In this document: positions 4,170-20,907 of the stretch, piece after piece
How positions within the stretch are numbered: position 1 is the stretch's first letter
Layout of the letters: each line of letters opens with the position of its first letter
Assembly (NCBI GenBank): GCA_902774995.1
Contig: CACYKR010000008.1
Coordinates: 1 to 39,690 of the forward strand
Source of the DNA: an uncultured Bacteroidales bacterium
GTDB taxonomy: Bacteria; Bacteroidota; Bacteroidia; Bacteroidales; Paludibacteraceae
Direction: 5' to 3'
Length of the DNA: 39,690 nt
Notes under the pieces: model-generated
What the model saw: only the letters and a program-made list of their open reading frames with translations
What the model was told of the DNA's origin: nothing
Databases searched by the model: none
Program-made: the position numbers and the translations under genes

Positions 4170-5204
4170 ATGCTTTGTCAAGACATACATAAGGCTATTG
4201 CTCCCTGGCTCGATCGCTACAAACAGATTTGCGTGGTGGCGGACGAGGCGGTGAACGTGGATTGGCCCTACCCCACGCTGCGGATAACCGTTAGCGAGCA
4301 GGACAAATCCCTGGAGACCGTATCCCGTATCTGGGATTTTCTCTTGGAGCAGCACTTCACCCGCCGCGGACTGCTCATCGCCGTCGGAGGAGGTGTCCTG
4401 ACCGACCTCGCAGGCTTTGCCGCAGCTACCTACAAACGCGGTATAGACTACCTCAATATCCCTACTACCCTGCTCGCCATGGTCGATGCCTCCACCGGCG
4501 GCAAGACGGGCTTCAACTACCATGGTCTCAAAAACGCAATAGGAGCTTTCCATGCGCCCGTAGAGACGCTCATCTACCCGCCGTTCCTCGACACCCTGCC
4601 CCCGCAGCAGTTCCTCAGCGGCTTTGCCGAGATGCTCAAAACCGGACTGATAGCCTCCTCCCCCTCTGAGAGGGGGTCAGAGGGGGCTTTATGGTACCGT
4701 CTCCTGCAATACGACCTGGATACGATAGACACCGCCGCACTGGCACCGCTTATCATGGATTGTATCGCTGTCAAGGAGCGTATCGTAGCCGCCGACCCCG
4801 ACGAACAAGGTCCCCGCAAAGCCCTCAACCTCGGACACACCTTCGGCCACGCGTTGGAAGAAATCTCCTTCGTACATCGTACTTCGTCCCTTGGTCCTTT
4901 GCTCCACGGTTACGCCGTTCTCTACGGCCTCATCGCCGAACTGTACCTCTCCGTCACGCTCCTGGGTTGCCCGCGCGACCCCTTGCAGCAGCTGACCCTC
5001 CTGATGCTCCGGTATTACGGCCGTCCCGTATGCAAATGCTCAGACAGACGGCAGCTCATAACCCTCATGCAGCAGGATAAAAAGAACGAGCATGCAGCCG
5101 AGATCAACTGCACGCTCCTTCATGCTATCGGAGCCCCCGCCATCAACCAAACGGTCACACCGGCACAAGCCGAAGAGGCTTTAGAATACCTTTTCTCCCT
5201 GTAA
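4170..5204 (+). CDS. aroB: 3-dehydroquinate synthase with two in-frame repeat insertions
   Basis: AroB converts DAHP to 3-dehydroquinate, the second step of the shikimate pathway, using NAD and a divalent metal. The NAD-binding motif GGGVLTDLAGFAAATYKRG, the PTTLLAMVDASTGGKTGFN stretch and the metal ligands in AEMLK, LNLGHTFGHALE and LLHGYAV are all visible. I place the start at the ATG at 4170 (an in-frame TTG lies just before). The protein is 344 residues. Two segments look foreign to the family. PSERGSEG at about 4660-4688 is encoded by a G-rich palindrome. FVHRTSSLG at about 4869-4898 is encoded by a GTAC-type repeat, and it sits between the two His-bearing metal motifs. The 3' end overlaps the convergent secreted-protein gene by 24 bp. 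The catalytic motifs are intact, so the enzyme is probably active. Confidence 0.95.
   Translation: MLCQDIHKAIAPWLDRYKQICVVADEAVNVDWPYPTLRITVSEQDKSLETVSRIWDFLLEQHFTRRGLLIAVGGGVLTDLAGFAAATYKRGIDYLNIPTTLLAMVDASTGGKTGFNYHGLKNAIGAFHAPVETLIYPPFLDTLPPQQFLSGFAEMLKTGLIASSPSERGSEGALWYRLLQYDLDTIDTAALAPLIMDCIAVKERIVAADPDEQGPRKALNLGHTFGHALEEISFVHRTSSLGPLLHGYAVLYGLIAELYLSVTLLGCPRDPLQQLTLLMLRYYGRPVCKCSDRRQLITLMQQDKKNEHAAEINCTLLHAIGAPAINQTVTPAQAEEALEYLFSL
4660..4686. repeat. G-rich palindromic element inside aroB
   Basis: The perfect palindrome CCCCCTCTGAGAGGGGG (4660-4676) is followed by TCAGAGGGGG. The same core occurs at 7278-7294 and, inverted, at 31982-31998, each next to TC and another G run. Here it is translated as SPSERGSEG within AroB and keeps the frame. 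Confidence 0.85.
4869..4898. repeat. GTAC-type interspersed element inside aroB
   Basis: CTTCGTACATCGTACTTCG followed by TCCCTTGGTCC. It matches the elements at 13659, 14041, 20525 and 20769 in the order GTACAT-n-GTACAT, then CCCTTnGTAC. It is in frame and is translated as FVHRTSSLG in AroB. Confidence 0.7.
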
Positions 5205-7193
5205 CGTAAAGACACCTTCCTCCGCCTCTACCAGCACTACGCCGTCTTTCATCACCAGTCTGGCTTTGCCGCCTGCGGACGAACCGTTGCTGTCCGGAGT
5301 ATCCACACCCTGAGGATGCGACGGATAAGCCTCCTGACGGATGATATACAGCGTCACGGCGTCGTGGTCATAGCTGACGATGACGTACGTACGCATCGGC
5401 TCCGACTGTACGAATGACGGCAGTTTGAACTTGTTCGCTACCACATACGTACGTCCTTTATAGCTCATCTCCGTCCAGCCCTCTACTACGGCGCTGTCCA
5501 GTACCAGATACCGGCATACGTCTGCGGAGTCAATCACCGCCGGTGCTTCTTCCGGCAACACTTCTCCGTTCTTGCCTGCGCGGAACGGCTCGGTAGGAGA
5601 GATCTCCGGCACACCGAAATAGTTGATAAACCGTCCCGTCACGCCCGACAAGGGATCCCCCGCCTTGACGTCCGCACCGTAACGCTTGCCCGTCACGCCG
5701 TCGCCGCGGTCAAAGAGCAGCATAGACCCTGTCTCGTCCCGTACATAGATATAGTTGTCGTATTTCTTGGTCACCGTCACGTCATTCAGATACACTACCG
5801 CGTGATCCTCCGCCTGCACAGCCTCCGCTACACGCAACACCCTCTGCAGGTTGAGTAGCACCGCTACCTCCGTCCGCACACTGCCGCTCTCCAGCACCAG
5901 CGTATCGACATAATGCCCCGGCGTTGCCTCATACGAGACAGTCAGCCGGTCGCCGTCCCGGTCTAACCATTCGTCCGAGAGTTTGAACACCCCGCCGTGC
6001 TTGAGCGATACGTGTATGTCCGCCGTCAGACGGTTGGCATTCACGCCGATGGTACGCGAGCCCGTCGTCTCGATGGTCGTCCCGAAATTGACGAACGGCG
6101 CTACGATAGCCGCTACGTCGCCCAATGCCTCCACCCTTCGGTACAGACACACCGGTGTCTGCGACCGCTCCGCGTAACAGCTGAAAAGCGTAGGACTGTT
6201 CTGTGCGTTGTACTGGATAATCTTCGAACGGCTGTTCCCGAGGTTCGTTATGACCGCTTCGCCGCCGTTCTCTATCGTTATATCCCAAAAACCGTAGTTG
6301 CCGTACGTGTCCTTGTCCACCACGTCCGTCCACACCGCAAGCCTGTTCTTCGTCTTCCCCCCGGAGGCTACCAGATACGCTTCTTCGTACCGTAACTCGT
6401 CCTGGAAGATATACGCCGTCCGGCCGTCCGACTCGGCGATACGGAGCGTATAGACCGCCCGGTCATCGGCCGCCACGGTGCTTCGGTCCGCAGAATAACG
6501 ACCGGAGATGGCGTGGATATTATTCACGCTCTCCCACTCGTCGTAATAGCCCATAATCTCGTTCACCCCTTCTTTATAGACGCCGAAGATCACTTGGTCG
6601 GAGTCCTGTAGCTGCGCTACGTCGGTCACCAGTTGGTAGGTGTCCATCGTAAAGACGGAACTGCCGCCTGACGCCGAACGGATGGTGACAGACTGTATAT
6701 TGATGGCGTTCTCGGTACATTTCACCCAAAAGCGGATCTTACCCGTCTGCGGCGTGGTAAACGCCACTACCGAATCACGGTTATAGACCCCGGCACCGCT
6801 GGTAGCGGGCTTGGTCACTATAATGCTGTCAGGCGCGTTGTTGCCTACCTGTACATAGATCACACCACGCCCTTTGGAAGAGTTCTGGCAGAAGTTAAAA
6901 CTAACCCGCCTCACCTCTTCAAAGGTCTGCACGGAAGTGGCACCGGCACCCGTAGTGCCTGTCTTGACGCTCACGCCCGCCGAATAGAGCCTTCCTTCCG
7001 CGTCCGTGCGGCCGGCGCTGTAATCCGACGCATTCTTGTCGCTTACCCATCCGTCCGTCTTGCCGTCGCAAACCGTGGCTTCTACCTTGGACACCCAGGA
7101 AACGGAAGTGAACGTATAAGTCACTTCCCCTGCCCGCACTGCTATCGCCCCCAGCAACAGCAGCACTCCTACCATAAATCGTTTCCCTTTCAT
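5181..7193 (-). CDS. secreted protein with OB-fold-like region and short C-terminal tail
   Basis: This is a 670-residue exported protein. The start at 7193 gives MKGKRFMVGVLLLLGAIAVRA, a clear signal peptide. A longer reading from 7217 would begin with residues encoded by a dispersed repeat and is rejected. After the signal come Ser/Thr/Gly-rich beta-type segments. The later region (about 460-560, including LRVAEAVQ, VYLNDVTVTKKYDNYIYVRD and GVTGRFINYFGVPEI) resembles the OB-fold domains of Bacteroidales secreted proteins. The last 25 residues (KDGVVLVEAEEGVFTLQG) match the tails of two other secreted proteins here. It is the last gene of the long lpx-glnS-phoH operon and has normal codon use. 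It ends inside the 3' end of aroB. Function is unknown; a surface or extracellular location is inferred. Confidence 0.85.
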   Translation of the reverse strand: MKGKRFMVGVLLLLGAIAVRAGEVTYTFTSVSWVSKVEATVCDGKTDGWVSDKNASDYSAGRTDAEGRLYSAGVSVKTGTTGAGATSVQTFEEVRRVSFNFCQNSSKGRGVIYVQVGNNAPDSIIVTKPATSGAGVYNRDSVVAFTTPQTGKIRFWVKCTENAINIQSVTIRSASGGSSVFTMDTYQLVTDVAQLQDSDQVIFGVYKEGVNEIMGYYDEWESVNNIHAISGRYSADRSTVAADDRAVYTLRIAESDGRTAYIFQDELRYEEAYLVASGGKTKNRLAVWTDVVDKDTYGNYGFWDITIENGGEAVITNLGNSRSKIIQYNAQNSPTLFSCYAERSQTPVCLYRRVEALGDVAAIVAPFVNFGTTIETTGSRTIGVNANRLTADIHVSLKHGGVFKLSDEWLDRDGDRLTVSYEATPGHYVDTLVLESGSVRTEVAVLLNLQRVLRVAEAVQAEDHAVVYLNDVTVTKKYDNYIYVRDETGSMLLFDRGDGVTGKRYGADVKAGDPLSGVTGRFINYFGVPEISPTEPFRAGKNGEVLPEEAPAVIDSADVCRYLVLDSAVVEGWTEMSYKGRTYVVANKFKLPSFVQSEPMRTYVIVSYDHDAVTLYIIRQEAYPSHPQGVDTPDSNGSSAGGKARLVMKDGVVLVEAEEGVFTLQGEKVF

Positions 7194-7198
7194 AACTA

Positions 7199-7244
7199 TC
7201 CATACGGCTTCAGCCAATCGTTCGAGGCCTTGCCGAGATAAGAA
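7199..7244. repeat. 46-bp dispersed repeat, copy 2
   Basis: This is the second copy of the repeat at 1795-1840, directly upstream of the start codon of the secreted-protein gene. It is followed by CAACTGTCAACTATCAAC oligomers and then by the G-rich palindrome at 7278. Confidence 0.85.
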
Positions 7245-7277
7245 CTATCAACTGTCAACTATCAACTTCCCCCCTCT

Positions 7278-7302
7278 CCCCCTCTGAGAGGGGGTCGGGG
7301 GG
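7278..7302. repeat. G-rich palindromic element between phoH and the secreted-protein gene
   Basis: CCCCCTCTGAGAGGGGG (7278-7294) followed by TCGGGGGG. This intergenic copy shares the core with the copy inside aroB and the inverted copy at 31982. Confidence 0.85.
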
Positions 7303-7309
7303 TATCCTT

Positions 7310-8248
7310 TCAACTTTCGACTTTTAATTTGTACGCTGCTACAATCTTCTTCACCAGCGGGTGGCGGACAATATCTTTCTCGTTGAACTCGATAATCTTG
7401 ATACCTTTTATCTCCCGGAACCGCTCCATAGCATCCCTCAGACCGGACTTCTGGCTCGGCGGCAGGTCTATCTGCGTCATGTCACCGGTGACAATCATCT
7501 TACCGCCTATACCTAATCGGGTCAGGAACATCTTCAGCTGCAGCGTGGTGGTGTTCTGCGCCTCATCAAGAATAACGATGGCGTCACTCAGTGTCCGTCC
7601 GCGCATGAACGCCAGAGGTGCTATCTGGATCACTCCCTTCTCCATGTATTCGTTCAGCTTCGTACCGGGAATCATGTCCTGCAGCGCGTCGTACAGCGGT
7701 TGCAGATACGGGTCGATCTTCTCTTTCATGTCTCCCGGCAGAAAACCTAATTTTTCTCCTGCCTCTACCGCCGGACGCGAAAGGATGATACGCCTGACCT
7801 CTTTGTTCTTCAACGCCCTGACGGCCAGCGCGATAGCCGTATAGGTCTTGCCGCTGCCGGCAGGACCTACCGCAAAGAGCAGGTCGTTCTCCTCGTAGGC
7901 TTCCACCAGTGCCTGCTGGTTGACAGAACGGGCATAGATAGACTTGCCGTTCACGCCGTGCAGGATCAGGTTCTCCGTGCCCTGCTCGTGAGGTTTCTCG
8001 CCGTGGAGAAGCTGCAGGATCTGCTGCTCCGAGAGAGCGTTGTTACGGATACAGAAATCTTCACAGAGCCGCAGCGAACGCTCGAATAGCGCTACCGCTT
8101 TCTCTGCACCCGACACCTTTATCTGATACCCGCGCGCAATCACGCGCACGTCCGGGTGCTGGTTCTTGAGACAGAGGATATTACTGTTGTTCACACCGTA
8201 AAAGGTCGGTGTATCCAGGGAGTCGTTGAGAGTAATGATTTGTTCCAT
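7310..8248 (-). CDS. phoH: PhoH-like ATPase
   Basis: A 312-residue P-loop ATPase of the PhoH family, whose members are linked to RNA metabolism and stress. Motifs seen are FYGVNNSNI near the N terminus, typical of Bacteroidales PhoH, a Walker A motif GPAGSGKT at about residue 130, the signature SRPAVEAGEKLGFLPGDM, and a Walker B region IVILDEAQNTT near 225. LTRLGIGGKMIVTGDMTQIDLP follows. The start at 8248 is supported by the conserved N terminus, although it overlaps the upstream nuclease-like gene by 68 bp. It follows glnS and the nuclease-like gene in the operon. The family assignment is secure; the cellular substrate is not known from sequence. Confidence 0.95.
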   Translation of the reverse strand: MEQIITLNDSLDTPTFYGVNNSNILCLKNQHPDVRVIARGYQIKVSGAEKAVALFERSLRLCEDFCIRNNALSEQQILQLLHGEKPHEQGTENLILHGVNGKSIYARSVNQQALVEAYEENDLLFAVGPAGSGKTYTAIALAVRALKNKEVRRIILSRPAVEAGEKLGFLPGDMKEKIDPYLQPLYDALQDMIPGTKLNEYMEKGVIQIAPLAFMRGRTLSDAIVILDEAQNTTTLQLKMFLTRLGIGGKMIVTGDMTQIDLPPSQKSGLRDAMERFREIKGIKIIEFNEKDIVRHPLVKKIVAAYKLKVES

Positions 8249-8615
8249 CCGGATTGAGAGTTACGAAAATAGACTGAGGTCCGTTATGCAAGAGCAGATA
8301 GGGGACATTCAGCTCACGGTTGTATGTCTGTGCCTGGTCAAGTGTCTTCTGGGTCAGCGGTACGGTCTCCGCCTTGCACTCAATGAGCACCAGCGGCTTC
8401 ATCTGTTTGTCATAGACTACGGCGTCGCAGCGCTTGTGCACCTCGCCTACCGTGATTGCCTGCTCCACGGCGATGAGGGAAGCCGGAAAGCCAAGTTGCT
8501 CCACCAACCGGTGAAGCAACTGCTGGCGTACCCATTCCTCAGGCGTCAGGCGCACCCATTGTTTGCGCCATTCGCAGAAAATCTGCTCTTTACCATTGTT
8601 TATGCGCGTGCGCAT
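8181..8615 (-). CDS. small type I restriction HsdR N-terminal-like protein (PD-(D/E)xK fold)
   Basis: A 144-residue soluble protein resembling the free-standing HSDR_N domain proteins of Bacteroidetes. It contains LTPEEWVRQQLLHRLVE, then GFPASLIAVEQAI, then a nuclease-like core RCDAVVYDKQMKPLVLIECK with the D...ExK arrangement. The ending is VPYLLLHNGPQ. I chose the ATG at 8615, which shares a base with the glnS stop (TAATG), implying translational coupling; a longer reading from 8645 starts inside glnS. Its 3' end overlaps phoH by 68 bp. No restriction or methylase genes are nearby, so a role in restriction is not supported. It is more likely an orphan DNA- or RNA-processing domain. Confidence 0.88.
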   Translation of the reverse strand: MRTRINNGKEQIFCEWRKQWVRLTPEEWVRQQLLHRLVEQLGFPASLIAVEQAITVGEVHKRCDAVVYDKQMKPLVLIECKAETVPLTQKTLDQAQTYNRELNVPYLLLHNGPQSIFVTLNPDGTNHYSQRLPGYTDLLRCEQQ

Positions 8616-10357
8616 TATTTCAGATAGTTGTCCTTGAGCGAGCACGTTCTGTTGAGTACCAGTTTCTCGGCGGTAGTGTCGGGATCGACTACGAAATACC
8701 CCTGTTTGAGCAACTGGTAGTGATTCTCCTGCTCAATGCCGTCCACCAGCACCGGCTCGTGCAGCTCGCTGCGCAGACTGCCTTCCACCTTCGCCGTCAC
8801 TACCTTGAGGCTCTCGGGGTTCAGCAGCTCACGGAAATCACCTTCCTCGGCGGAGGGGTTCTCAACGGCGAAGAGCCGGTCGTAGAGCCTTACCTCGGCG
8901 TACAGAGCGCTGTGGCACTCCACCCAGTTGATAGTTGCCTTCGTCTTGCGGTTGCCGCCTTCGGTGCCCGACTTGGAGTCAGGGTCGTAGGTCGCATATA
9001 CGTTGGTGATATTGCCGTTCTCGTCTTTCTCGCACCCCGTAGCCTGGATGATATACGACGCTTTGAGACGTACCTCGCGGCCGCCCGGACTGAGACGGTA
9101 GAACTTGTTGTCGGCCTCCTCCAGGAAGTCGCCGCGCTCGATCCACAGCTCCTTGCCGAACTGCATCTCACGCGTACCTAACTCGGGATGACCGTCGATG
9201 TTCTCGGCTACCAGAATTTCCGGTTTCTCCGGATTTTCCGGATAGTTGGTAATCACCAGCTTCACGGGGTCGAAGATGGCGCACACACGCGGGGCGGTCT
9301 CTTTGAGGTCCTCGCGGATGGTGTGCTCCAGCAGGCCCTGGTCAATCATGCCCTCCACCTTGGTATAACCTATCTTGTCCATGAACGTACGGATAGCGCT
9401 CGGCGTGTAGCCGCGGCGGCGCAGACCGCACACGGTCGGCATACGCGGGTCGTCCCAGCCGGCTACCAGGCCTTCTTTAACCAGCTGCAGCATCTTACGC
9501 TTGGACATGACGGTATAGGTGATATTCAACCGGTTGAACTCACGCTGCTTCGGGCGGTAGTCCGGGCCGTAAGGCGAGAGCCCTGCGAAATTGGCACCGG
9601 TGATCTGATCCAGGAAATAGTCGTACAGCGGCCTGTGTACCTCGAACTCCAGCGTACAGATAGAGTGGGTCACGCCCTCGAAATAGTCGCTCTGTCCGTG
9701 CGCGAAGTCGTACATCGGATAGACGTTCCAGCGGCGGCCCGTACGGTGGTGCGGATGGGAAGTGATAATACGGTACATGATCGGGTCGCGGAAGTGCATG
9801 TTCGGATTGGCCATGTCGATCTTCGCACGCAGCACCATCTTGCCTTCCTCTATCTCGCCGCGCTGCATGGCTTCGAACAGACGGAGGTTCTCCTCTATCG
9901 GCCTGTCGCGGTAAGGCGATGCCACACCCGGTTCGGTAGGCGTACCTTTCTGCTCGGCTATCTGCTCGGCGGTCTGTTCATCGACGTAGGCCTTGCCCTC
10001 TTTGATGAAGCGGATAGCCAGGTCGTAGAGCTGCTCGAAATAGTCGGAGGCATAGAAGATCTGTCCCCATTTGAATCCCAACCAGCGGATGTCGCGTTCG
10101 ATGGTCTCAACATACTCGGTATCCTCCTTGGCGGGGTTGGTGTCGTCGAAACGCAGGTTGCACACGCCGTGGTATTTCTCGGCAATGCCGAAATCCATAC
10201 AGATGGCTTTCACATGACCGATATGCAGGTAGCCGTTCGGCTCCGGCGGAAAACGGGTCTGGATACGTCCGTTATTGACTCCCTCGGCGAGGTCTTTCTC
10301 TACGATCTGCTCAATAAAATTGAGGCTTTTCTCTTCTGTCTGCTTCTCGTTTTCCAT
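8615..10357 (-). CDS. glnS: glutaminyl-tRNA synthetase
   Basis: GlnRS charges tRNA-Gln with glutamine. The 580-residue class I synthetase shows PPEPNGYLHIGHVKAICMDF (HIGH motif), RFDDTNPAKE, ATP-site residues near YPMYDFAHGQSD, and the KMSKS-equivalent VMSKRKMLQLV. The C-terminal anticodon-binding beta barrels follow (RGDFLEEADNKFYRLSPG region). The length fits the family. It lies 3 bp downstream of lpxA and is coupled to the next gene by TAATG, so it belongs to the lpx operon. Confidence 0.97.
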   Translation of the reverse strand: MENEKQTEEKSLNFIEQIVEKDLAEGVNNGRIQTRFPPEPNGYLHIGHVKAICMDFGIAEKYHGVCNLRFDDTNPAKEDTEYVETIERDIRWLGFKWGQIFYASDYFEQLYDLAIRFIKEGKAYVDEQTAEQIAEQKGTPTEPGVASPYRDRPIEENLRLFEAMQRGEIEEGKMVLRAKIDMANPNMHFRDPIMYRIITSHPHHRTGRRWNVYPMYDFAHGQSDYFEGVTHSICTLEFEVHRPLYDYFLDQITGANFAGLSPYGPDYRPKQREFNRLNITYTVMSKRKMLQLVKEGLVAGWDDPRMPTVCGLRRRGYTPSAIRTFMDKIGYTKVEGMIDQGLLEHTIREDLKETAPRVCAIFDPVKLVITNYPENPEKPEILVAENIDGHPELGTREMQFGKELWIERGDFLEEADNKFYRLSPGGREVRLKASYIIQATGCEKDENGNITNVYATYDPDSKSGTEGGNRKTKATINWVECHSALYAEVRLYDRLFAVENPSAEEGDFRELLNPESLKVVTAKVEGSLRSELHEPVLVDGIEQENHYQLLKQGYFVVDPDTTAEKLVLNRTCSLKDNYLK

Positions 10358-12094: not shown

Positions 12095-13150
12095 TTATTT
12101 CTTCTCTACCGCCTGCAGTCTCTTGAGAATGTCCGGCAGTTGCTTGAATCCTACTGACGACCGCCGCCAGTTGCCCGCTTCAATAGCGGGCGTACCCTGG
12201 TACATACCGGGTTTGCGTACCGAACCTGCCACGCCGGCTTGTGCGCCGAAGATGCAGTTGTCTGCTATCTCGATATGCCCCGCTACGCCTACTTGGCCGG
12301 TCAGGATACAGTGCTTGCCGACCTTGCTGCTGCCGGCTATGCCTACCTGCGCACAGAGGAACGTGCTCTCGCCTACTTCTACGTTGTGGGCTATCTGCAC
12401 CAGGTTGTCTATCTTCACGTTCCTGTGTACCACGGTCGAACCCATCATCGCGCGGTCCACACAGCTGTTGGCGCCTATCTCCACGTCGTCCTCGATGACC
12501 GCATTGCCTATCTGCGGGATCTTTTGGTTCACGCCCTGTGCGTCCGGCTCGAAACCGAAACCGTCGGCGCCTATCACCACGCCGCTGTGCAGGATACAGC
12601 CTTTGCCTATCCGGCAGTTGGCATAGACCTTCACGCCCGAATAGAGGATCGTACCGTCGCCTATCGTCACATTGTCCCCTACATACGCCTGCGGATAAAT
12701 CTGCACGCCGGCGCCTAACTTCACGTTCTTGCCGATATACGCAAACGCGCCTATATACGCATCTTCGGGCACCTCTACACCCTCGCTCACATACGACGGC
12801 TGCTCTATCCCTTTCTTGGCGGGGTACATCACTTCCGACACCATCTTCAATAACTGTCCCATGGCGCCTCGGGCATTCTCCACCAGAATAAAAGCTCTGT
12901 CCTTAAAGTCCTTAAAGTCCCTAAGGTCCTTGGAGCCCTTAGTCTCTGTAAGTCCCTTGGTAACCAGTACCACGCCTGCTTTCGTCGTTTCCAGACAGGG
13001 GAGGTATTTCTCGTCCGTGACAAAGGACAGATGACAAGCCTGCGCTTGTTCTATCGGTGCAACGTCACTCACTTGGGCATTGGCGTTGCCGTATAACTCG
13101 CCGCCTAAGACGGCCGCTATCTGTTGTGCACTAAATTCCATGATTCTCAA
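12095..13150 (-). CDS. lpxD: UDP-3-O-acylglucosamine N-acyltransferase with a repeat-encoded insertion
   Basis: LpxD adds the second acyl chain in lipid A synthesis. The 351-residue protein has an N-terminal uridine-binding domain (about 1-110), a long run of hexapeptide repeats (about 115-310) and the catalytic His in NLVQIAHNVEVGEST. The N-terminal domain contains the odd, repetitive segment KGSKDLRDFKDFKD at about residues 70-84. It is encoded by tandem 9-bp AAGGACTTT units (12896-12962) and looks like an in-frame insertion before the conserved AFILVENARGAM. It follows the HD-hydrolase gene by 31 bp of TCAAATGTC oligomers. The catalytic part is intact. Confidence 0.96.
   Translation of the reverse strand: MRIMEFSAQQIAAVLGGELYGNANAQVSDVAPIEQAQACHLSFVTDEKYLPCLETTKAGVVLVTKGLTETKGSKDLRDFKDFKDRAFILVENARGAMGQLLKMVSEVMYPAKKGIEQPSYVSEGVEVPEDAYIGAFAYIGKNVKLGAGVQIYPQAYVGDNVTIGDGTILYSGVKVYANCRIGKGCILHSGVVIGADGFGFEPDAQGVNQKIPQIGNAVIEDDVEIGANSCVDRAMMGSTVVHRNVKIDNLVQIAHNVEVGESTFLCAQVGIAGSSKVGKHCILTGQVGVAGHIEIADNCIFGAQAGVAGSVRKPGMYQGTPAIEAGNWRRSSVGFKQLPDILKRLQAVEKK
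12896..12962. repeat. 9-bp tandem repeat array inside lpxD
   Basis: On the coding strand the core reads AAGGACTTTAAGGAC, preceded by degenerate units such as GGACCTTAGG and GGGACTTACAG. It is translated as a KDF/KDL repeat inside the N-terminal domain of LpxD and keeps the frame. Confidence 0.8.
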
Positions 13151-13181
13151 ATGTCAAATCTCAAATCTCAAATGTCAAATC

Positions 13182-14468
13182 TCAAATACGATATTTGAAT
13201 AAATACCGTTTAATCGGTTTCCTTGTCAGCGCCGCCAGGTCGAGTATCTCGCTTGCCTCGGCGATGTCGCGTACCGTCCCGTCCGAATAGAGTATATCAA
13301 TCGTATCGGCTTTCTCCGAATAGGTGTTGCTCGTGGACACATGCTCGCTCCAGCAGTAGGCCGCTTCTTCCTCCGTGATACCTAATGCACCGGCATACTC
13401 GCTGTTCAGCGCTTTCTGCTGAGCCTCCGTCAGAGGTGCCTCTATCAGTTCTCCGCGGAAGAGCTGCCTGTCCACAAACGAACGGCTCAGGACACTCAGA
13501 ACCCTGTCGCCGCTGCCTATCCATGCCTTGATGGCACTCAGCACATCCGTGTCATCCAGCAGGGCGTATTGCTCCAATGCCTCGCTATATACGCCGAAAT
13601 CGGCAAAGGAGACCTGATTATACAGAAAATAACGCAACGCCGGCGAGCAGAACAGCTCCTTCGTACGTAGTACATCGCCCTTTCGTACGTCTCTTGCCAG
13701 CTCCTTGGCGCGGCTCAGAATCTTGATCAGCTGCTGCTCCGCCGCCACGGAGGTCTTATGCAGATAGACCTGCCAGTACATCAACCGCCGTGCTACCAGA
13801 AATTTCTCCACACTGTAGATACCCTTCACCTGCACCACCAGCCTGTCGTCACGCACATCCAGCATCTTCAACAACCTCTCGCTGGCCACGCGGCCCTCCT
13901 GCACGCCCGTGAAAAACGAGTCGCGGCACAGGTAATCCATCCGGTCCACATCCAGTTGTGAACTGATCAGCTGGTGCAGGAAATGTTTCGGATACTCGTT
14001 CTTGAAGATAGCAATCGCCATATCCAGCGGCTTTGCCTCCCTTGTACATGGTACATTGTCCCTTTGTACATTAGATAGGTCCTCGTTGATCCGCTCCATC
14101 ATCAGAAGCGATATATCCTCATGCGTCACGCCGTCCACGAGTGTGTGCTCCAACACATGGGAGAACGGACCGTGCCCTATATCATGCAGCAGGATTGCTA
14201 TCTCCGCAGCCGTGGCCTCTTCGTCCGTGATCACGACTCCCTTGCTGCGCAAGGCGGCTATGGCTTCCTGCATCAGGTGCATCGCACCTATCGAATGACA
14301 GAAGCGACTGTGTTGGGCACCGGGGTACACCAGATACGACAACCCCAACTGGCGGATACGGTTCAAGCGCTGCACATAGGGGTGCTGCAGAACGTCATAC
14401 ACCAACTCGTTCGGTATGGTCAGAAATCCGAACACCGGATCATTGATTATCTTTCGTTTGTTCGCCAA
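13182..14468 (-). CDS. HD-domain phosphohydrolase (dNTPase/SAMHD1-like family)
   Basis: A 428-residue HD-superfamily protein. The metal-binding motifs are seen as RFCHSIGAMHLM, LLHDIGHGPFSHVLEHTL and, later, LDVDRMDYLCRDSFFTG. The fold and length match the Bacteroidota proteins found upstream of lpxD. Some relatives hydrolyse dNTPs, but the substrate here is unproven. Two segments appear to be in-frame GTAC-type repeat insertions. NVQRDNVPCTRE (14041-14072) sits before LDMAIAIFKNEYP. DVRKGDVLRTK (13659-13690) sits before ELFCSPALRYFLYN. It is the first gene of the lpx operon, with a promoter at 14507-14537. Confidence 0.93.
   Translation of the reverse strand: MANKRKIINDPVFGFLTIPNELVYDVLQHPYVQRLNRIRQLGLSYLVYPGAQHSRFCHSIGAMHLMQEAIAALRSKGVVITDEEATAAEIAILLHDIGHGPFSHVLEHTLVDGVTHEDISLLMMERINEDLSNVQRDNVPCTREAKPLDMAIAIFKNEYPKHFLHQLISSQLDVDRMDYLCRDSFFTGVQEGRVASERLLKMLDVRDDRLVVQVKGIYSVEKFLVARRLMYWQVYLHKTSVAAEQQLIKILSRAKELARDVRKGDVLRTKELFCSPALRYFLYNQVSFADFGVYSEALEQYALLDDTDVLSAIKAWIGSGDRVLSVLSRSFVDRQLFRGELIEAPLTEAQQKALNSEYAGALGITEEEAAYCWSEHVSTSNTYSEKADTIDILYSDGTVRDIAEASEILDLAALTRKPIKRYLFKYRI
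13659..13690. repeat. GTAC-type interspersed element inside the HD-hydrolase gene, copy a
   Basis: CTTCGTACGTAGTACATCG followed by CCCTTTCGTACGT. On the coding strand it reads in frame as RKGDVLRTKE, the same reading frame as the copies at 14041, 20525 and 20769. Confidence 0.75.
14041..14072. repeat. GTAC-type interspersed element inside the HD-hydrolase gene, copy b
   Basis: CTTGTACATGGTACATTG followed by TCCCTTTGTACATT. The coding-strand translation is NVQRDNVPCTRE. Confidence 0.8.
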
Positions 14469-14679: not shown

Positions 14680-14768
14680 GCCGCGATGTTGGAATAGGTA
14701 GACAAGAAAGACTTAAAATCTTTTGCCCAGTGATGGGCGTGCCGGTTCGACCCCGGCTCGCGGTACCA
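14680..14768 (+). tRNA. tRNA-Leu(UAA)
   Basis: The acceptor stem GCCGCGA (14680-14686) pairs with TCGCGGT (14758-14764), with a terminal G-U pair. The anticodon arm AAAGA-CTTAAAA-TCTTT gives anticodon TAA. A long variable arm (TGCCCAGTGATGGGCG) is the class II tRNA feature of leucine. The T arm GCCGG-TTCGACC-CCGGC follows, then discriminator A and an encoded CCA (14766-14768). The D arm contains TAGGTAGACAA. Confidence 0.97.
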
Positions 14769-14794
14769 AAATTATGAAAAAAATGGCGTACGGC

Positions 14795-14825
14795 TTGTGT
14801 ATGTCATTTTTTTTTTGTACCTTTG
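14795..14825 (+). promoter_or_regulatory. Bacteroidota-type promoter of the T9SS-cargo/OmpA unit
   Basis: TTGTGTATGTCA (from 14795), a ten-T run and TACCTTTG (14818-14825), with 23 bases from TTG to TA. It leaves a leader of about 35 bases before the ATG at 14867. Confidence 0.8.
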
Positions 14826-14866
14826 CGGCGTTTTTGAAGAACACCATATAATAAAATCTCTACTGT

Positions 14867-17800
14867 ATGAAAAAACTATTCCCTGTTTTGATGCTTTTCT
14901 GCGTGCTGCCATTGGTAGCCCAGACGACAGTGTCCACTCCGGAGGAGTTGAGGGCATTCGCCACCCAGTCCGCCACGAGTGATTTCGAGGGTCAGACGAT
15001 TGACCTGACGGCAGACATTGATTTGGCGGGAGTGACGTGGACACCTATCGGCACTGCCGACAAGCCGTTCAAAGGAACCTTCCGAGGAAACGGACACGTA
15101 ATCAAAGGACTGCACGATTTCAGCACGCTGGACGGCGTAGGCCTCTTCGGCCATGTAGCCAAGGGGGCTACCATTGAGAAATTAGGTATCTGCAACAGCA
15201 CCATTGTTGCCAAGCCGAAACGCAAGATCGGTGCCATCGCCGGCGTCTGCGCCGGTCGTATCGACCAGTGCTGGAGCTCGGCTCACATCGCCGCAGCCGG
15301 CAACACGGTAGGCGGTCTGGTAGGTGAGCTGACGGAGGACGGAGAGCTGACCGATTGCTACCACTCGGGACTGATCCGCAACACGGGCAACGTGGTCGGA
15401 GGTCTGGTAGGAGCCAACTACGGTACGCTCACCCGCACCTATAACACCGGTTATGCGGAGAACGGAAAAGCACTCGTCGGAGAAGACCATAACGGTACGT
15501 ACAACGAATGCTATTACGACCGCAAACTCTACTATCTCCAGTCCGGAGTAGCGGAGGAGAACGTAACTGTCGGCGTGGACGTGACGGAGACTATGTTCTC
15601 CCTGTTCAAGGGTCTGGCGGCATGGTCGAACGCCTCCGACCGCTATCCTACACTGAGCGCATTCGGCGCTACCGACGCCGCTCTGCTCTCGGCTGCACCG
15701 CTCTACATCGACACGCTGAGCGTGAACCCCGTCAACCATGCCGACATGCTGACGGAGGATTTCACCGTCTCCACCGCCAACGGCGTCAGCTGGGCATGCC
15801 ACTACCAACAACACGAGCAATGGATCCAAATCACCGGCAGCAAAGTCAAGGTGGTCCGTCCCTGTACCGAGACGGAAGTGCTGGCGGTTGCCTCTATAGG
15901 CGAAGAGAAACGAGTGGTATATCTCCATCCGCTCCGTCTGGAGGATTTTGAGTCCGGACTGTTTAACGGTCTTGCTCCGACCGCTACGTTCTGTCAGGAC
16001 GAAGAGGACGAGCCCCTCTACGCCTATGTCCGCACGCTGGCGGCTAAAAACGGATGGAAAGAGGGCGACTATTACTACTGCGTCGTCCGCGGCCGTATCA
16101 ACGGCACCGACACCGTGTTCAGCGGCTTGGCAAAAGACACGCTGTTTGAGGGCAACCAGACAGCCTATGCCGCTTGGCATAACAGCTACCTGATAGACAC
16201 CTCCGAACCCGGTCTGTTCGTCCTCCGCCGCTTTGCGCATGACGAGGGGTGTGTACCCGACTGGCTGCGTTCGAGAGGAGAGTTTGTCTATCGTGTATTC
16301 CCTGCCTTTGACCCGGGAGAGATCAGCGACGGCAGAGACACGGTCTATCTCAACCCGAATCCCTATCCCACAACCGTCACAAGCCTCTCCCCGGCTACCG
16401 GTGGAGGCGGAGCCATCACTTATGAATGGAAAGTGAACGGCAGTACGATAAGCGGCACCAATACGGTTTCTCTCACCTATAATATAACGCAGGCAGGCGA
16501 ATATACGTTCACGCGTACGGCGCGCGACAGCGCAGGCTGCTGCAGCGACAAGACCCAGGCCGTAGGCGCCTTCACGCGCGTTGTATTCGACCCGTTCCTA
16601 CCGGGTGCGATTACCGAGGAAACCAGCCTCACATTCTGCACCGTTGAGGAGGCCAAAGAATATACCGTCCCGGCAACGACGGCTACCGGCGGCAGCAAAA
16701 AATATGAGTACCAATGGTACCTTGTCTCCGGCACGGACACCACGGCTATCAGCGGTGCTACGGCACAGAACCTGCCTCTCAGTCTGCTGGACATCCGGGC
16801 AGGCGAGGACTACACCGTAGTTCGCAAGGCGAAAGACGACACGCGCTTCACCACACTCACCCTGAGCGAGAACCAAACGACGGTACATGTGTTCACGCCC
16901 GTGAAAGCCGGTATAATCCAGGGAGGCACGCAGGAAAACTACTGCGCGCCGTATGACGCAAGCACTTCCACCCAAGTGGCTGTAGATGTAGAGGAGATTG
17001 ACGGAGGTGCCGCCGAAGGTGAAAACGGGAATATAGAGTACCGCTGGCTCTATATCCAAGACGGAGAGGCAGAGCCTGTGGTAATTGAAGGCAGCAACAA
17101 TGCCGAGTTGCACACCTACTTCCTCTTGTCCAAACTGAAAGGCAAGACCTATACCTATGTCCGCGAGGTGCGCTACCCCGGTTGCGAATGGGTTCGCTCA
17201 ACCGGAGAAGCCAAACGCTATTACGGTCAAGACACACGTTACGAAATAGTGAAGACCATTTGCAAAGAGCACCTGCCATACACGATGACGATGAATGACA
17301 GCACACATGTCTTCACGGCAGACGGCGACGAATGGTTGGTACTGAATAATACGAAGGGACTTTGCTCCGAGGATACACTCTTCATCATTCATACAGTTAC
17401 CATGCCGGTATTTGAAATCGACTCTGTGGCACGTGTATGCCAGGAAGAACAGATCATGACCCTGAACTTTGAGCAGAAAGCCGGTCTGTCAGACAAATAC
17501 CGTATTACCTATTCTGACCATTTGGCAAGCCTTATTGGACGCAAAACCGAGACCGGTGTTATTACGGAAGAAGGCAGAATCATCATCAGAAACATTCCTG
17601 CTATTGATAGAGATCCCGCTAACTGGTTAGAGTTGGAAATAGGATATGTAGGCGATGCCACCGATGAGTCCGATATCTGCTATAGCACACCGCACAGAAT
17701 GCGTCTGGATTTCAGTATAGGAGGTTATCTGCATACTAAATACGACCGCGTGCTCTTTGTGGACAACAACCCCGAGAACGGCATTGAGACCGGAGGAGCC

Positions 17801-18217
17801 GAAAAACTCAGATTCGTTTCCTACCAATGGTATAAAAACGGTTTGAAACTGGAAGGACAGACCGATCAGTACTATCACGAAGGCGGCGCACAGCTGATCG
17901 GTGTATTCTACTGCGAGATAGTGGACACCAATGGGAAAAATTATGTCACCTGTGACATTACCCTGCCGCATGCAACCAGTTGGTCCGCGCCGCAGCGCAG
18001 CACCGTCTATCCGGTACCGGTAGCCGCTTCACAGCCGCTGACTATCGAGGGCGAGGGATCGGCGCTCATCCGCTCTTTTGCCGGAGAGATCATCAGCCGC
18101 ATAGAGTCCATCGACGGGACAATCACCGTTGCCGCTCCGCGCGCCACCGGTATCTATTACGTACAGATCACCGCACCCGACGGCACAATGGAGATGCATA
18201 AATTAATCGTTAAATGA
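14867..18217 (+). CDS. T9SS-sorted GLUG-repeat surface protein
   Basis: A 1116-residue surface protein. The signal peptide is MKKLFPVLMLFCVLPLVAQ. Residues about 20-220 form a GLUG-motif region (ADIDLAGVTWTPIG, GLFGHV, VGGLVGEL, VGGLVGANYGTLTRTYNTG), found in bacterial adhesins. Residues about 330-1000 are a chain of Ig/PKD-like beta domains (YEWKVNGSTISGTNT, YEYQWYLVSGTDT, IEYRWLYIQDGE). Residues about 1045-1116 are a type A T9SS C-terminal sorting domain (VYPVPVAASQPLTIEG, then GIYYVQI and the terminal HKLIVK). The protein is therefore expected to cross the outer membrane through T9SS and be anchored at the surface. Its stop overlaps the leader of the next gene, which encodes an OmpA/LysM protein, so the two are co-transcribed. 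A role in adhesion is inferred from the domains. Confidence 0.93.
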   Translation: MKKLFPVLMLFCVLPLVAQTTVSTPEELRAFATQSATSDFEGQTIDLTADIDLAGVTWTPIGTADKPFKGTFRGNGHVIKGLHDFSTLDGVGLFGHVAKGATIEKLGICNSTIVAKPKRKIGAIAGVCAGRIDQCWSSAHIAAAGNTVGGLVGELTEDGELTDCYHSGLIRNTGNVVGGLVGANYGTLTRTYNTGYAENGKALVGEDHNGTYNECYYDRKLYYLQSGVAEENVTVGVDVTETMFSLFKGLAAWSNASDRYPTLSAFGATDAALLSAAPLYIDTLSVNPVNHADMLTEDFTVSTANGVSWACHYQQHEQWIQITGSKVKVVRPCTETEVLAVASIGEEKRVVYLHPLRLEDFESGLFNGLAPTATFCQDEEDEPLYAYVRTLAAKNGWKEGDYYYCVVRGRINGTDTVFSGLAKDTLFEGNQTAYAAWHNSYLIDTSEPGLFVLRRFAHDEGCVPDWLRSRGEFVYRVFPAFDPGEISDGRDTVYLNPNPYPTTVTSLSPATGGGGAITYEWKVNGSTISGTNTVSLTYNITQAGEYTFTRTARDSAGCCSDKTQAVGAFTRVVFDPFLPGAITEETSLTFCTVEEAKEYTVPATTATGGSKKYEYQWYLVSGTDTTAISGATAQNLPLSLLDIRAGEDYTVVRKAKDDTRFTTLTLSENQTTVHVFTPVKAGIIQGGTQENYCAPYDASTSTQVAVDVEEIDGGAAEGENGNIEYRWLYIQDGEAEPVVIEGSNNAELHTYFLLSKLKGKTYTYVREVRYPGCEWVRSTGEAKRYYGQDTRYEIVKTICKEHLPYTMTMNDSTHVFTADGDEWLVLNNTKGLCSEDTLFIIHTVTMPVFEIDSVARVCQEEQIMTLNFEQKAGLSDKYRITYSDHLASLIGRKTETGVITEEGRIIIRNIPAIDRDPANWLELEIGYVGDATDESDICYSTPHRMRLDFSIGGYLHTKYDRVLFVDNNPENGIETGGAEKLRFVSYQWYKNGLKLEGQTDQYYHEGGAQLIGVFYCEIVDTNGKNYVTCDITLPHATSWSAPQRSTVYPVPVAASQPLTIEGEGSALIRSFAGEIISRIESIDGTITVAAPRATGIYYVQITAPDGTMEMHKLIVK

Positions 18218-18218
18218 T

Positions 18219-18224
18219 AGGAGG
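18219..18224 (+). promoter_or_regulatory. perfect Shine-Dalgarno AGGAGG before the OmpA/LysM gene
   Basis: AGGAGG lies 7 bases before the ATG at 18232 and fixes this start over an upstream ATG at 18214. Such a site is uncommon in this phylum, and most starts in the window lack one. Confidence 0.8.
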
Positions 18225-18231
18225 AACGGAT

Positions 18232-20031
18232 ATGAAAAAGACATTTCTGATAATTGGTATCTTGGCAATAACCGCCTCTTTATCGGCGAAACAATACCCC
18301 GACTCGGTACGTGAAGCCAGCCGGGAAGAAGCCAACATCGCTTATGGCTGGAACTTCGAGTTCGGCGGCGGCCTGGGAGTAGGCAGTTACCTGTTCTCCC
18401 AGATGGGTTCGGGCTATACGCCGGCTCACGTAGTGAACAAAGTGCAGTTCCCCGCCTGGCACGCAGAGGTAGGTATCAACTACTACTTCGTGCCGTGGAT
18501 GGGTATCGGTACCGGTGCGCAGTTCTCCGCCTACCCCAACCGAGCGGCGATAGAGAACCCGTGGGTGAAGAACGCCAATGATATCTATGGCGATGCCTAT
18601 ACGCTCACCTCGGTGCCCAACTCCCTGACTGAAAGCCAGAACATCTACATGTTAGAGATCCCTATGGCGCTGAAGTTCCGTGCCCGTCCGGGCGTAGTCG
18701 GTTTCACCGGTACTGCCGGTGTGAAGATCGGTCTGCCGATGATTAACAACAACCGTCTGACGGACGGCACGATAGCCAATACAGTGCATTACCCCTTCTA
18801 CGACCTGACGATGAGTCATGTACCGACCGTAGTGGAAGATCTCTCTATTGCAGGCGGCAGCACCTCTCTCAGCACCAGCCGTTTCCGCACACTCAACTAC
18901 GCGGCTTATGCCGAGTTAGGCATGCTCATCCGTCTCCACCAACGCGTGGAGCTCGCCATTGCAGCCTACGCCAACTATTATTTCACGGACCTGCTGGAGA
19001 TACACGGCAGCAATGAGTTAGGCTTCTACGACGGACGCAGCGTAGGCGAATACCCCACGGCCTATGCCGCTTCGTACGACGGCGTGCTGCGCACCACCGA
19101 GGTGCAGGAGTTACACCCCTGGTCGGTAGGTCTGAAGATAGGTCTGCAGATCAACGCCAACCGCACGAAGGCGCAGCGTGACTACGACCGCGAGCAGCGG
19201 CGTCTGCGCAAAGCGGCACAGGAAGAAGAACCGGCAGAAGAGCCGGTAGAAGAGCCGACAGCGGTAGAGGAACCGGTTGTAGTAGCCGTGGTGGATACGA
19301 TCCCGGAGGAGCCTGTGGACACCACACCGGATCCCATTGAGCTGATACGCCGTATCGCCGAGGCGAACAACATCGACATATGCGCAGTATTCTGCCCCGA
19401 ACCGGAACCCGAACCGGAACCACCTGTCACCAATGCGGTAGCTGCCGAACTGGAGGAGGAACTCAAGAAAGCGGTGATCTATTTCGATTATGACAAAGCG
19501 GTACCTATCCTGGAGCCGAAAGACATCCTCGTCCGCATAGCCGAAGTGCTCAAACGCCATCCGCAGCAGAAGATCCATGTCAATGGACACACTTGCAAAC
19601 TCGGCAAACCGGATTACAACAAGCGTCTGGCTCTCCGCCGCGCCAACGCCGTAGCCGACCAGCTCCGCGCCTTGGGCGTACACGACGACCAGATGCTCAT
19701 TGCCAGTCTGGGTGCCGACGTGCCGTACCGCTACGGTGTGAAACACCCGTACGCAAAAGACCGCCGCGTGGAGATCGTACCTACCTATCGCACCACCGAA
19801 GTGGTACGCCCCGGCTCACGGCTCGCACAGATAGCCCGGCGCCATTACGGCAATCCGGATTTCTGGGTCTTCATCTACGAAGCCAACCGCGATAAGATAA
19901 CCGACCCGCAGAACCTGCCTGCCGGTATCGAACTGGAGATACCCGACCTCTCCGACAGACTGAAAGGCATGACGGAAAAAGAAGTGGCTGACGAAGCACT
20001 CCTACTCAAAAAACAACTTATGAAAGAATAA
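18232..20031 (+). CDS. OmpA-family outer-membrane protein with C-terminal LysM-like domain
   Basis: A 599-residue envelope protein. The signal peptide is MKKTFLIIGILAITASLSA. Residues about 25-303 form an outer-membrane beta barrel with alternating aromatic strands. Residues about 315-410 are an acidic, Pro/Glu-rich linker (PAEEPVEEPTAVEEPVVV, EPEPEPEPP). Residues about 413-522 are an OmpA C-terminal domain that binds peptidoglycan (VIYFDYDKAVPILEPKD, HVNGHTCKLGKPDYNKRLAL, DRRVEIVP). Residues about 525-575 are LysM-like (PGSRLAQIARRHYGNPDFWV). Two putative wall-binding modules on one barrel suggest a strong tether of the outer membrane to peptidoglycan. The start at 18232 is set by AGGAGG. 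It directly follows the T9SS-sorted protein and probably works with it, which is inferred from gene order only. It ends 3 bp from the convergent NlpC/P60 gene. Confidence 0.92.
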   Translation: MKKTFLIIGILAITASLSAKQYPDSVREASREEANIAYGWNFEFGGGLGVGSYLFSQMGSGYTPAHVVNKVQFPAWHAEVGINYYFVPWMGIGTGAQFSAYPNRAAIENPWVKNANDIYGDAYTLTSVPNSLTESQNIYMLEIPMALKFRARPGVVGFTGTAGVKIGLPMINNNRLTDGTIANTVHYPFYDLTMSHVPTVVEDLSIAGGSTSLSTSRFRTLNYAAYAELGMLIRLHQRVELAIAAYANYYFTDLLEIHGSNELGFYDGRSVGEYPTAYAASYDGVLRTTEVQELHPWSVGLKIGLQINANRTKAQRDYDREQRRLRKAAQEEEPAEEPVEEPTAVEEPVVVAVVDTIPEEPVDTTPDPIELIRRIAEANNIDICAVFCPEPEPEPEPPVTNAVAAELEEELKKAVIYFDYDKAVPILEPKDILVRIAEVLKRHPQQKIHVNGHTCKLGKPDYNKRLALRRANAVADQLRALGVHDDQMLIASLGADVPYRYGVKHPYAKDRRVEIVPTYRTTEVVRPGSRLAQIARRHYGNPDFWVFIYEANRDKITDPQNLPAGIELEIPDLSDRLKGMTEKEVADEALLLKKQLMKE

Positions 20032-20034
20032 TAC

Positions 20035-20907
20035 TTAGATTCTTCGGATAGAAACAAGGTGGTGTGAATAGCCACCTTGTTCTATGCTGTAGATACCCGT
20101 CTCGTCGATTTTCTCCACCTTCACGCGCCCAGAGCAATGTACCACGCGCTCGGAGTCGATGACGATACCTACGTGGGTGATATGGGGGGTAGTTTCGTTC
20201 CCTTCCCGGGAAGCAGGGAGAGGCTTGTCGAAGAACACCAGGTCCCCTGCACGCACTTGCTCCAGCCTCCGGACGGCTCTGCCATGCAGTGCCTGCTCGG
20301 AGGCGTTACGCGGCAGACGCTTGCCGAAAAGGCTCATCACCACCTGCACGAACCCCGAGCAGTCCATGCCCAGGGCGTTCTTGCCGCCCCACAAATAAGG
20401 CACATTCAGAAAGAAACGGACGACCTGCAGCAGGTTCTGCTCGTTCAACTCCAAGGGCTTCTCTATCACCATCGAGGGGTCAATACGGAAGCCCACTCCC
20501 AGCACCTCGAATCGCCCGAACGAAGTACCTTGTACATTGTCCTTTGCCACTTGGTACTGAGCCAGCCGTGTGCCGGCGGTGAGGGGGATGGTCTGGCCGT
20601 TGTTCTCACTCATGGCGTAAGCCATCGGCATGACGATCGTTGCCGTGGAGGTTTGGTAGGCCTTCCGGTACGCCGCATAGTCTTTCCCGCCTATGGGCGA
20701 TACCATCTTGGCATCCACCCACCCTTCTTCGCCGTCATTCTCCAGCTTCACGCGGTACCACCGGCCGGTTGTACATGGTACATCGCCCCTTGGTATCTCC
20801 TCCACAATCTCGCATAACTCGCCGAAGAGCATCTGGGTCTCCTGCTCCGCCGCTTCGCGTGCTTCTGCCCGCACGGGAACTATACTATGTAATGCTATTC
20901 CTTTCAC
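20035..20907 (-). CDS. NlpC/P60 cell-wall peptidase with SH3 domains and two repeat insertions
   Basis: A 290-residue NlpC/P60 protein, predicted to cut peptide bonds in peptidoglycan stems (D-glutamyl-diamino acid peptidase family). SH3-like domains occupy about residues 1-150 (RWYRVKLENDGEEGWVDAKMV). The catalytic domain follows, with LWGGKNALGMDCSGFVQVVM (Cys), GDLVFFDK and ITHVGIVIDSERVVHCSG (His). The start is a GTG at 20907 after an AAGGTGAAAGG sequence, 8 bp from the nadB stop. No signal peptide is visible. Two segments, KDNVQGTSF (20525-20557) and RGDVPCTTG (20769-20796), are encoded by GTAC-type repeats and sit in SH3-region loops. It is the last gene of the uxaB-uxaA-comF-nadB unit. 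Confidence 0.92.
   Translation of the reverse strand: MKGIALHSIVPVRAEAREAAEQETQMLFGELCEIVEEIPRGDVPCTTGRWYRVKLENDGEEGWVDAKMVSPIGGKDYAAYRKAYQTSTATIVMPMAYAMSENNGQTIPLTAGTRLAQYQVAKDNVQGTSFGRFEVLGVGFRIDPSMVIEKPLELNEQNLLQVVRFFLNVPYLWGGKNALGMDCSGFVQVVMSLFGKRLPRNASEQALHGRAVRRLEQVRAGDLVFFDKPLPASREGNETTPHITHVGIVIDSERVVHCSGRVKVEKIDETGIYSIEQGGYSHHLVSIRRI
20525..20557. repeat. GTAC-type interspersed element inside the NlpC/P60 gene, copy a
   Basis: GTACCTTGTACATTGTCC followed by TTTGCCACTTGGTAC. The coding-strand translation is KDNVQGTSF, in the same frame as the HD-hydrolase copies. Confidence 0.7.
20769..20796. repeat. GTAC-type interspersed element inside the NlpC/P60 gene, copy b
   Basis: TTGTACATGGTACATCG followed by CCCCTTGGTAT. 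The coding-strand translation is RGDVPCTTG. It is nearly identical at DNA level to the copy at 14041. Confidence 0.8.

Follow-up and report, generated by a model that had tools for sequence, protein, structure and literature searches.

How does one short stretch of DNA come to lie in frame inside several enzymes of unrelated function? The question is raised by a 39,690-nucleotide window (the whole stretch of DNA analyzed here; contig C8 of an uncultured Bacteroidales bacterium whose 2.18-Mb draft genome comprises 114 contigs and is 86.66% complete), in which a first-pass annotation had placed five copies of a GTAC-rich element within three genes: aroB, a gene for an HD-domain protein and a gene for an NlpC/P60 protein (Table 1). 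All five are borne out: a repeat search made without prior hint grouped the five places as a single family (D11), and they are also the five best window matches of R1, a profile of the element (E values from 5.3e-13 to 4.4e-5), followed in sixth place by the short heptamer array listed in Table 1. Six window positions agree with the consensus at 24 or more of 35 bases, while 19 of 20 block-shuffled windows contained no such position and the remaining one contained one. The annotated coordinates had marked the right places and fell slightly short, the full unit being about 35 nt long. The frames and peptides were as described: the four copies in the HD and NlpC/P60 genes all use the frame that we call NVQRDNVQCTK, and the copy in aroB, a plus-strand gene, is read from the opposite strand of the element as SFVHRTSSLG.

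The annotation had staked its reading on further copies elsewhere in the genome, and these exist. R1 (36 positions, built from 20 copies: 4 from the window, without the degenerate one at NlpC site 2, and 16 from elsewhere in the genome) found 131 matches in the source genome at E ≤0.0032 (150 scored of 1280 candidates), a few of which are neighboring parts of one array. Searches with a fixed pattern, GTACATNGTACATNG, allowing at most one mismatch, returned 124 genome matches against 5 for the reversed control. Most R1 matches are within long open reading frames (ORFs), counted as open frames rather than gene calls: 105 of the 131 lie in a stop-to-stop ORF of at least 200 residues that is more than 1.3 times as long as the next longest, and only 5 lie outside any stop-to-stop ORF of at least 150 residues. 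The hosts recognized by model matches include RsmH, MurE, MurG, RsgA, BatD and the three window proteins; ValS was named through a PDB match and other hosts by our own reading, and their functions are unrelated. Judged by sequence, most copies lie in genes that appear to work and are apparently translated as part of the protein.

The element is one unit of ~35 nt, with the consensus AATGTACAAAGGGACAATGTACAATGTACAAAGGA, which includes all five window copies and is laid out as TGTACAA / AGGGACAA / TGTACAA / TGTACAA / AGGA, that is, in steps of 7-8-7-7 nt. Mean pairwise identity among copies is 80%. The 103 copies matching the consensus at 28 or more of 35 positions, which were used for the boundary and flank tests, have sharp ends: conservation is ~0 bits at position +35, 0.11 and 0.14 bits at +36 and +37, and 0.09 bits at -1. 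Flanks of different copies are unrelated (6 of 5253 pairs on the left and 8 on the right reach 70% identity), which argues against segmental duplication as the source of the spread. Target-site duplication in these copies was not above control: the longest flank match was 5 nt, seen in 5 copies against 2.7 expected, and match lengths were distributed as in re-dealt flanks, with an end uncertainty of one or two bases allowed for. The palindrome TGTACA near both ends provides a 6-bp inverted pair; the element folds into a 6-bp stem only (-3.5 kcal/mol, z -2.2), and the fold has no inverted repeat longer than 6 bp. An internal repeat of ~22 nt is present, by our reading, at three places in the source genome (hits 10/110, 22/122 and 27/126). 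A scan of the window against Rfam returned nothing at gathering thresholds.

The consensus is free of stop codons in all six frames, as were 118 of 5000 dinucleotide shuffles. After re-anchoring, a frame could be assigned to 104 of the 131 matches, all in long ORFs, the other 27 being ambiguous. All six frames are used, very unevenly: NVQRDNVQCTK 61 times, SFVHCTLSLCT 16, LCTLYIVPLYI 9, PLYIVHCPFVH 8, MYKGTMYNVQR 7 and CTKGQCTMYKG 3. By our start-codon rule, 7 of 9 LCTLYIVPLYI copies are near the N-terminus of their protein, as are 6 of 16 for SFVHCTLSLCT, 2 of 8 for PLYIVHCPFVH and 4 of 61 for NVQRDNVQCTK. Conversely, 6 of 7 MYKGTMYNVQR copies are 20 residues or fewer from the C-terminus, against 1 of 61 in the NVQRDNVQCTK frame. 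The frame used thus tracks the setting: NVQRDNVQCTK is found in soluble domains, LCTLYIVPLYI in signal-peptide-like starts and MYKGTMYNVQR in C-terminal tails. We read the N-terminal copies, without a predictor, as resembling ordinary signal peptides or lipoprotein signals, for example MKKITLVLCTLSLCTFFVACSD. The C-terminal copies have the common tail ...KVLRDGKLYIMYKGTMYDVQGRRI, which we took to be similar to a type IX sorting tail; this label was not confirmed, since NCBIfam and Pfam searches of four tails returned weak, unrelated matches and none to a sorting domain. Two proteins, L098 and L090 (hits 44 and 113), share their C-terminal tails and have as linker either NVQRDNVQCTK or a SPALPSREGV-type sequence, so that a single position in the same genome is occupied by one repeat family or the other.

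We compared the sites across 61 genomes of the same genus (the source genome included), in which loci were matched for RsmH in 60, the HD protein in 59, NlpC/P60 in 57 and AroB in 55; the 30 best loci per gene, including the source's own, were aligned (29 relatives; 120 loci in all). Length counts cover the rows that could be parsed, pattern parsing having missed 21 of the 29 relatives at HD site 2. At the five window sites, as at two in RsmH, the element is absent from the majority of the 29 relatives or from every one of them. The shortest form at HD site 1, 13 residues fewer than in the source genome, is present in 14 of 28 relatives; 6 of 8 are 8 residues shorter at HD site 2 (e.g. RSGKELF against RDVRKGDVLRTKELF), 20 of 25 are 9 shorter at NlpC site 1 and 23 of 26 are 10 shorter at NlpC site 2. 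In RsmH, the shortest form is common at the second site (16 of 29) and present in only 4 of 29 at the first. Other pairs of relative and source sequences are INMDLNGQLDMAI against INEDLSNVQRDNVPCTREAKPLDMAI and LTNYKDGRF against LAQYQVAKDNVQGTSFGRF. The AroB loop is hypervariable: the source has 15 residues between anchors, the commonest length among relatives is 11 (6 of 29) and the shortest 6 (1 of 29), and neither R1 nor a consensus scan gave a GTAC-like match at this site in any of the 29. AlphaFold models the HD protein with a mean predicted local distance difference test score of 88.2; residues 132-147 and 260-270, the two inserts, are modeled with low confidence at helix ends. The first-pass description of a dispersed in-frame element in unrelated enzymes of a Bacteroidales genome, most homologues of which lack the residues, therefore stands.

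Table 1 Features of the window discussed in the text (R1, profile of the GTAC element; coordinates refer to the window).
Feature	Coordinates	Strand	Evidence or peptide
Host aroB, 3-dehydroquinate synthase	4167..5204	+	PF01761, PF24621
Second family, palindromic CCCCCTCTGAGAGGGGG type, in aroB	4656..4688	+	Peptide SSPSERGSEGA
GTAC copy in aroB	4866..4900	-	R1 E 3.2e-10
Host HD-domain protein	13182..14468	-	PF01966, PF19276
GTAC copy, HD gene site 2	13657..13690	-	R1 E 2.2e-9; peptide DVRKGDVLRTK
GTAC copy, HD gene site 1	14038..14072	-	R1 E 5.3e-13; peptide NVQRDNVPCTRE
Host NlpC/P60 protein, N-terminal SH3 domain	20035..20907	-	PF00877, PF18348, PF08239
GTAC copy, degenerate, NlpC/P60 gene site 2	20529..20557	-	R1 E 4.4e-5; peptide within QVAKDNVQGTSFG (20515-20553)
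GTAC copy, NlpC/P60 gene site 1	20768..20798	-	R1 E 1.7e-9; peptide IPRGDVPCTTG
Short GTACAAT heptamer array at ORF edge; unit shared, element partial	24747..24762	+	R1 E 0.001, model positions 16-31 only

Distant homologues with the same segments, which the annotation had held incompatible with its reading, were not seen at HD site 1: none of 60 HD proteins of 58% identity or less has the extra residues. One of these 60, from a Prevotella metagenome-assembled genome (MAG; L235), has a repeat-like insert, HSPLTSHHSPLTSH, near HD site 2, so the phenomenon may extend beyond the genus. The named relatives with at least 80% identity to the HD protein come from Bacteroidales MAGs, several of them from ruminant rumen, and a variant at the HD insertion site is also found in a public MAG (L199). 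R1 at E ≤0.1 reported little in the 120 aligned loci beyond the seven copies of the source genome: genome G018 has a weak match (E 0.0057) at HD site 1, and three other loci hold four still weaker ones, their sites unplaced. The consensus scan added look-alikes at HD site 1 in G057 (25/35) and at NlpC site 2 in G075 (25/35, equal to the source's own degenerate copy and unreported by R1 at that threshold), and R1 matches are also present inside rsmH fragments of G018 and G057, outside the 30 loci aligned. The element is therefore common to a few species at some sites, through descent, exchange or repeated hits. The RsmH on contig C51 of G018 is 94% identical to that of the source over its last 125 residues, while other near-full-length relatives reach only 85% overall; the gene may have been exchanged recently.

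Other species often carry other repeats at the same sites. Units of (TATTCAG)n, (CAATTCA)n, AAATGGT and GTTACGG occupy the aroB site in relatives; GAGAGTT, GATTTGG and AAAAGAC units are found at the HD gene sites and CAATTCA in rsmH. Each family has its own distribution across the 61 genomes. With stricter filters, R1 counted 108 GTAC copies in the source genome and 39 in G050, with matches in 40 genomes (the source included) and none in 21. CAATTCA has 164 copies in G050, 91 in G021 and 4 in the source genome (reversed control, at most 1 per genome), and AAAGTCN, whose control gave at most 7, has 80 in the source genome, 86 in G057 and 11 in G050. Heptamer families have thus been amplified species by species. 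A tree of four proteins from 23 taxa places G050 as the sister of the source genome; HD site 1 is filled by a different sequence in G050 and is without an insert in G022, the next lineage, which indicates that insertion sites turn over quickly. For loci selected by gene, self-similarity at a lag of 7 nt amounts to 23.0 per 100 kb in the genus against 1.8 in shuffles; in other genera it is raised to a lesser degree (7.4 against 1.0).

Copies can also be substituted for existing sequence. The signal peptide of the source BatD, MKRILFILCTLYIVPLSLWA, is largely composed of the GTAC element, and its distance to the conserved FKAQAP motif (24 residues) is the same as in 10 of the 26 correctly parsed relatives, sister G050 included (range 22-31; L376, L382 and L395, 3 of the 29, were mis-parsed and are left out). 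By these alignments, the element has replaced the core of the BatD signal peptide without a change in length. RsgA aligned with the solved structure 1u0l shows gaps of 6 and 8 residues opposite its two GTAC copies, MurG is nearly length-neutral, and ValS, which aligns with several small gaps, is off by a few residues. Together, the four proteins show that copies can lengthen loops and also overwrite them. Three points hence go beyond the first-pass annotation: the sites are hotspots holding heptamer-based repeats in sister species, replacement can be length-neutral, and the frame depends on protein context.

We wondered how such copies arise. The explanation that we prefer, and to which we give an even chance, is that the GTAC element is a non-autonomous dispersed repeat which spreads without a dedicated transposase and is shaped by 7-nt slippage and a selection filter. 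Several families of short repeats, most of them with heptamer units, would be spreading in the genus, this element among them. A new copy would arise when a short patch is copied, independently of homology, into a target or over it; the route would be template switching or short-patch illegitimate recombination. Slippage by 7 nt would lengthen or trim arrays. Selection would purge the copies that break frame or fold, leaving presumably neutral, stop-free survivors in loops (NVQRDNVQCTK), in signal-peptide cores (the hydrophobic antisense frames) and in C-terminal tails (MYKGTMYNVQR). A bolder proposal, which we consider possible and put forward tentatively, is a pervasive overwriting of coding DNA by 7-nt-based repeats across the genus, at times at unchanged length, each sister species rewriting the same loops, signal peptides and C-terminal tails with different repeat families; the GTAC element would perhaps have originated in the C-terminal tail of a secreted protein (...KLYIMYKGTMYDVQGRRI) and escaped as a sequence free of stops in six frames.

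The main competitor is a true miniature transposable element, either akin to the palindromic elements of Rickettsia or a miniature inverted-repeat transposable element (MITE), moved by a transposase in trans and short and open in six frames by chance. The discrete unit with sharp ends and unrelated flanks, the patchy amplification among species, the inverted pair formed by TGTACA and the precedent of in-frame miniature elements in bacteria (PMC2229807) all suit it; nonetheless we consider it unlikely, as ordinary transposition is disfavored by the lack of a target-site duplication signal, of an inverted repeat above 6 bp and of a Y1 link, and by the overwriting in BatD at unchanged length. The Y1 family PF01797, the sole transposase family searched, is above cut-off in 19 of the 61 genomes, with a marginal match in the source genome (25.3 bits), and was not found in G015, G021, G050, G057, G062 and G075, which have 30-42 copies each (G050, G057 and G062 are 92-97% complete, the other three 63-78%). 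A RAYT/IS200 enzyme as the mover is unsupported.

Selection for a function of the peptide or DNA itself, such as a localization tag, a regulator site or an uptake signal, would mean that copies are recruited rather than tolerated. It would account for the uneven use of frames and the concentration of hydrophobic frames near N-termini, and it is improbable given that all six frames occur in hosts of unrelated function and that the matching site in sister species is either without an insert or filled by a different sequence. Still less probable is an origin in polymerase slippage at each site, heptamer arrays growing purely in place and nothing being copied from one site to another: it agrees with the lag-7 excess, the plain heptamer arrays that form many of the relatives' inserts and the ~22-nt internal repeat, yet it does not explain why the families are species-specific genome-wide or why a 35-nt layout with one 8-nt unit at a fixed place recurs more than 100 times with sharp ends. 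That the copies are an artifact of assembly or binning is barely credible: the genome is an incomplete draft in many contigs, but R1 matches recur in the genus at large, and the HD site variant comes from a public MAG.

Several observations weigh against copying of short patches without a transposase. The sharp ends and fixed 7-8-7-7 layout suit a discrete mobile unit better than random patches, and this discreteness, the main point against template switching, keeps a small mobile element in play. The source genome shows a net gain of 8-14 residues over the shortest relative at seven sites, so length-neutral replacement may not be the rule. The nearest genomes are ~85% identical in protein, which leaves no young empty site, and movement itself was not seen. 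The flanks of GTAC copies carry a signal of up to 0.33 bits at -9 to -13, and there is a lag-11 excess of 13.0 against 1.5; neither is accounted for. In a survey of interior insertions (at least 6 residues; 39 orthologue groups in 11 genomes), only 2 of 38 passed a strict heptamer test of 70% lag-7 identity. Of the nine insertions that belong to the source genome, one lies on an antisense ORF that is itself spurious; the eight genuine ones comprise three GTAC copies, one AAAGTCG stretch, one repeat that we read as palindromic-type and others that were not recognized. Repeats hence account for only part of the insertions and deletions. Finally, all genomes are drafts, and translation of the peptides is predicted from open frames.

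The known systems closest to the element each differ from it. Repetitive extragenic palindromic (REP) sequences are linked to REP-associated tyrosine (RAYT; Y1) transposases. The GTAC element resembles them in size (20-40 bp for REP sequences), dispersal and copy number, but REP sequences are palindromic and extragenic, whereas GTAC copies are mostly coding, fold weakly and have no cognate Y1 transposase in the six high-copy genomes; the target-site duplication of a MITE was likewise not detected. Short-patch double illegitimate recombination consists of rare single events in which a short segment is replaced by a copy of another and joined through microhomology: it would give a replacement such as that in BatD, and it is not known as the source of a genome-wide repeat family. 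Cyanobacterial heptamer repeats go by the name of short tandemly repeated repetitive (STRR) sequences. A 7-nt period, seen in the lag-7 excess and in the plain heptamers that relatives often carry, is reminiscent of heptanucleotide repeats of the STRR and long simple sequence repeat (LSSR) types, from which the GTAC family differs in lying inside core enzymes rather than mainly between genes and in its mixed 7-8-7-7 layout and fixed ends. TAACTGA heptamers of Beggiatoaceae, cyanobacteria and some Bacteroidetes are mostly intergenic and, in genes, found mainly at protein ends (PMC4679880); work cited there proposed slippage at 7 nt for bacterial heptamer repeats (PMC4679880).

The first-pass annotation had likened the element to the palindromic elements of Rickettsia (RPEs), and the likeness holds in kind and fails in structure. 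RPEs are described as 105-146 bp long, hairpin-forming and in frame in conserved proteins (PMC2229807; PMC10969869), with long stem-loops and terminal inverted repeats (PMC2229807); the same source reports one Yersinia repeat as part of a signal peptide (PMC2229807). Like RPEs and their Wolbachia relatives, the GTAC element is dispersed, lies in frame within the ORFs of conserved proteins, is one of several families (GTAC, CAATTCA, AAAGTCN) and is confined to one lineage. Unlike them, it measures 35 nt, has a 6-bp stem, exceeds 100 copies in one genome, partly replaces sequence and shares its sites with other repeats. The element is best regarded as a protein-coding dispersed repeat, not as an RPE. 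In the literature covered we found no report of the GTAC element or of heptamer families inside Bacteroidales core enzymes, and such reports may exist beyond it.

If this is correct, protein-coding mobile repeats would reach beyond the intracellular Rickettsia and Wolbachia into a Bacteroidales genus of many species, with a GTAC unit small enough to serve as a ready-made peptide. Since sister species differ at the same sites, nature has run an experiment here on the acceptance of new sequence by loops, signal peptides and tails. The genus would also be a place to catch transposase-free dispersal in action. There is a warning, too: where the loops of such proteins differ, the difference may stem from a repeat and not from adaptation.

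The window contains further repeats. The palindromic CCCCCTCTGAGAGGGGG-type family found in aroB, whose product scores 281.4 bits against NCBIfam TIGR01357 (under the cut-off of 305), has other copies at 7266-7309 and 31967-32010; at its aroB site the source has 16 residues and the relatives vary, 8 being the commonest length (13 of 26 parsed). The NlpC/P60 gene has a third insert (20191-20223, PLPASREGNET) that is missing in at least half of the aligned relatives and resembles the SPALPSREG-type repeat. A 65-nt repeat occurs at 1785-1849 and 7189-7253 with 91% identity, and SSLERVKSSARSDCRW, common to two host proteins, may be what a related repeat encodes. Heptamer arrays of the AAATGTC/AAATCTC type lie at 13146-13188, overlapping the 3' end of the HD gene, and at 27520-27573. 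A 1751-residue ORF at 34328-39583, built of ~201-nt and 87-nt repeats, probably encodes a repetitive surface protein.

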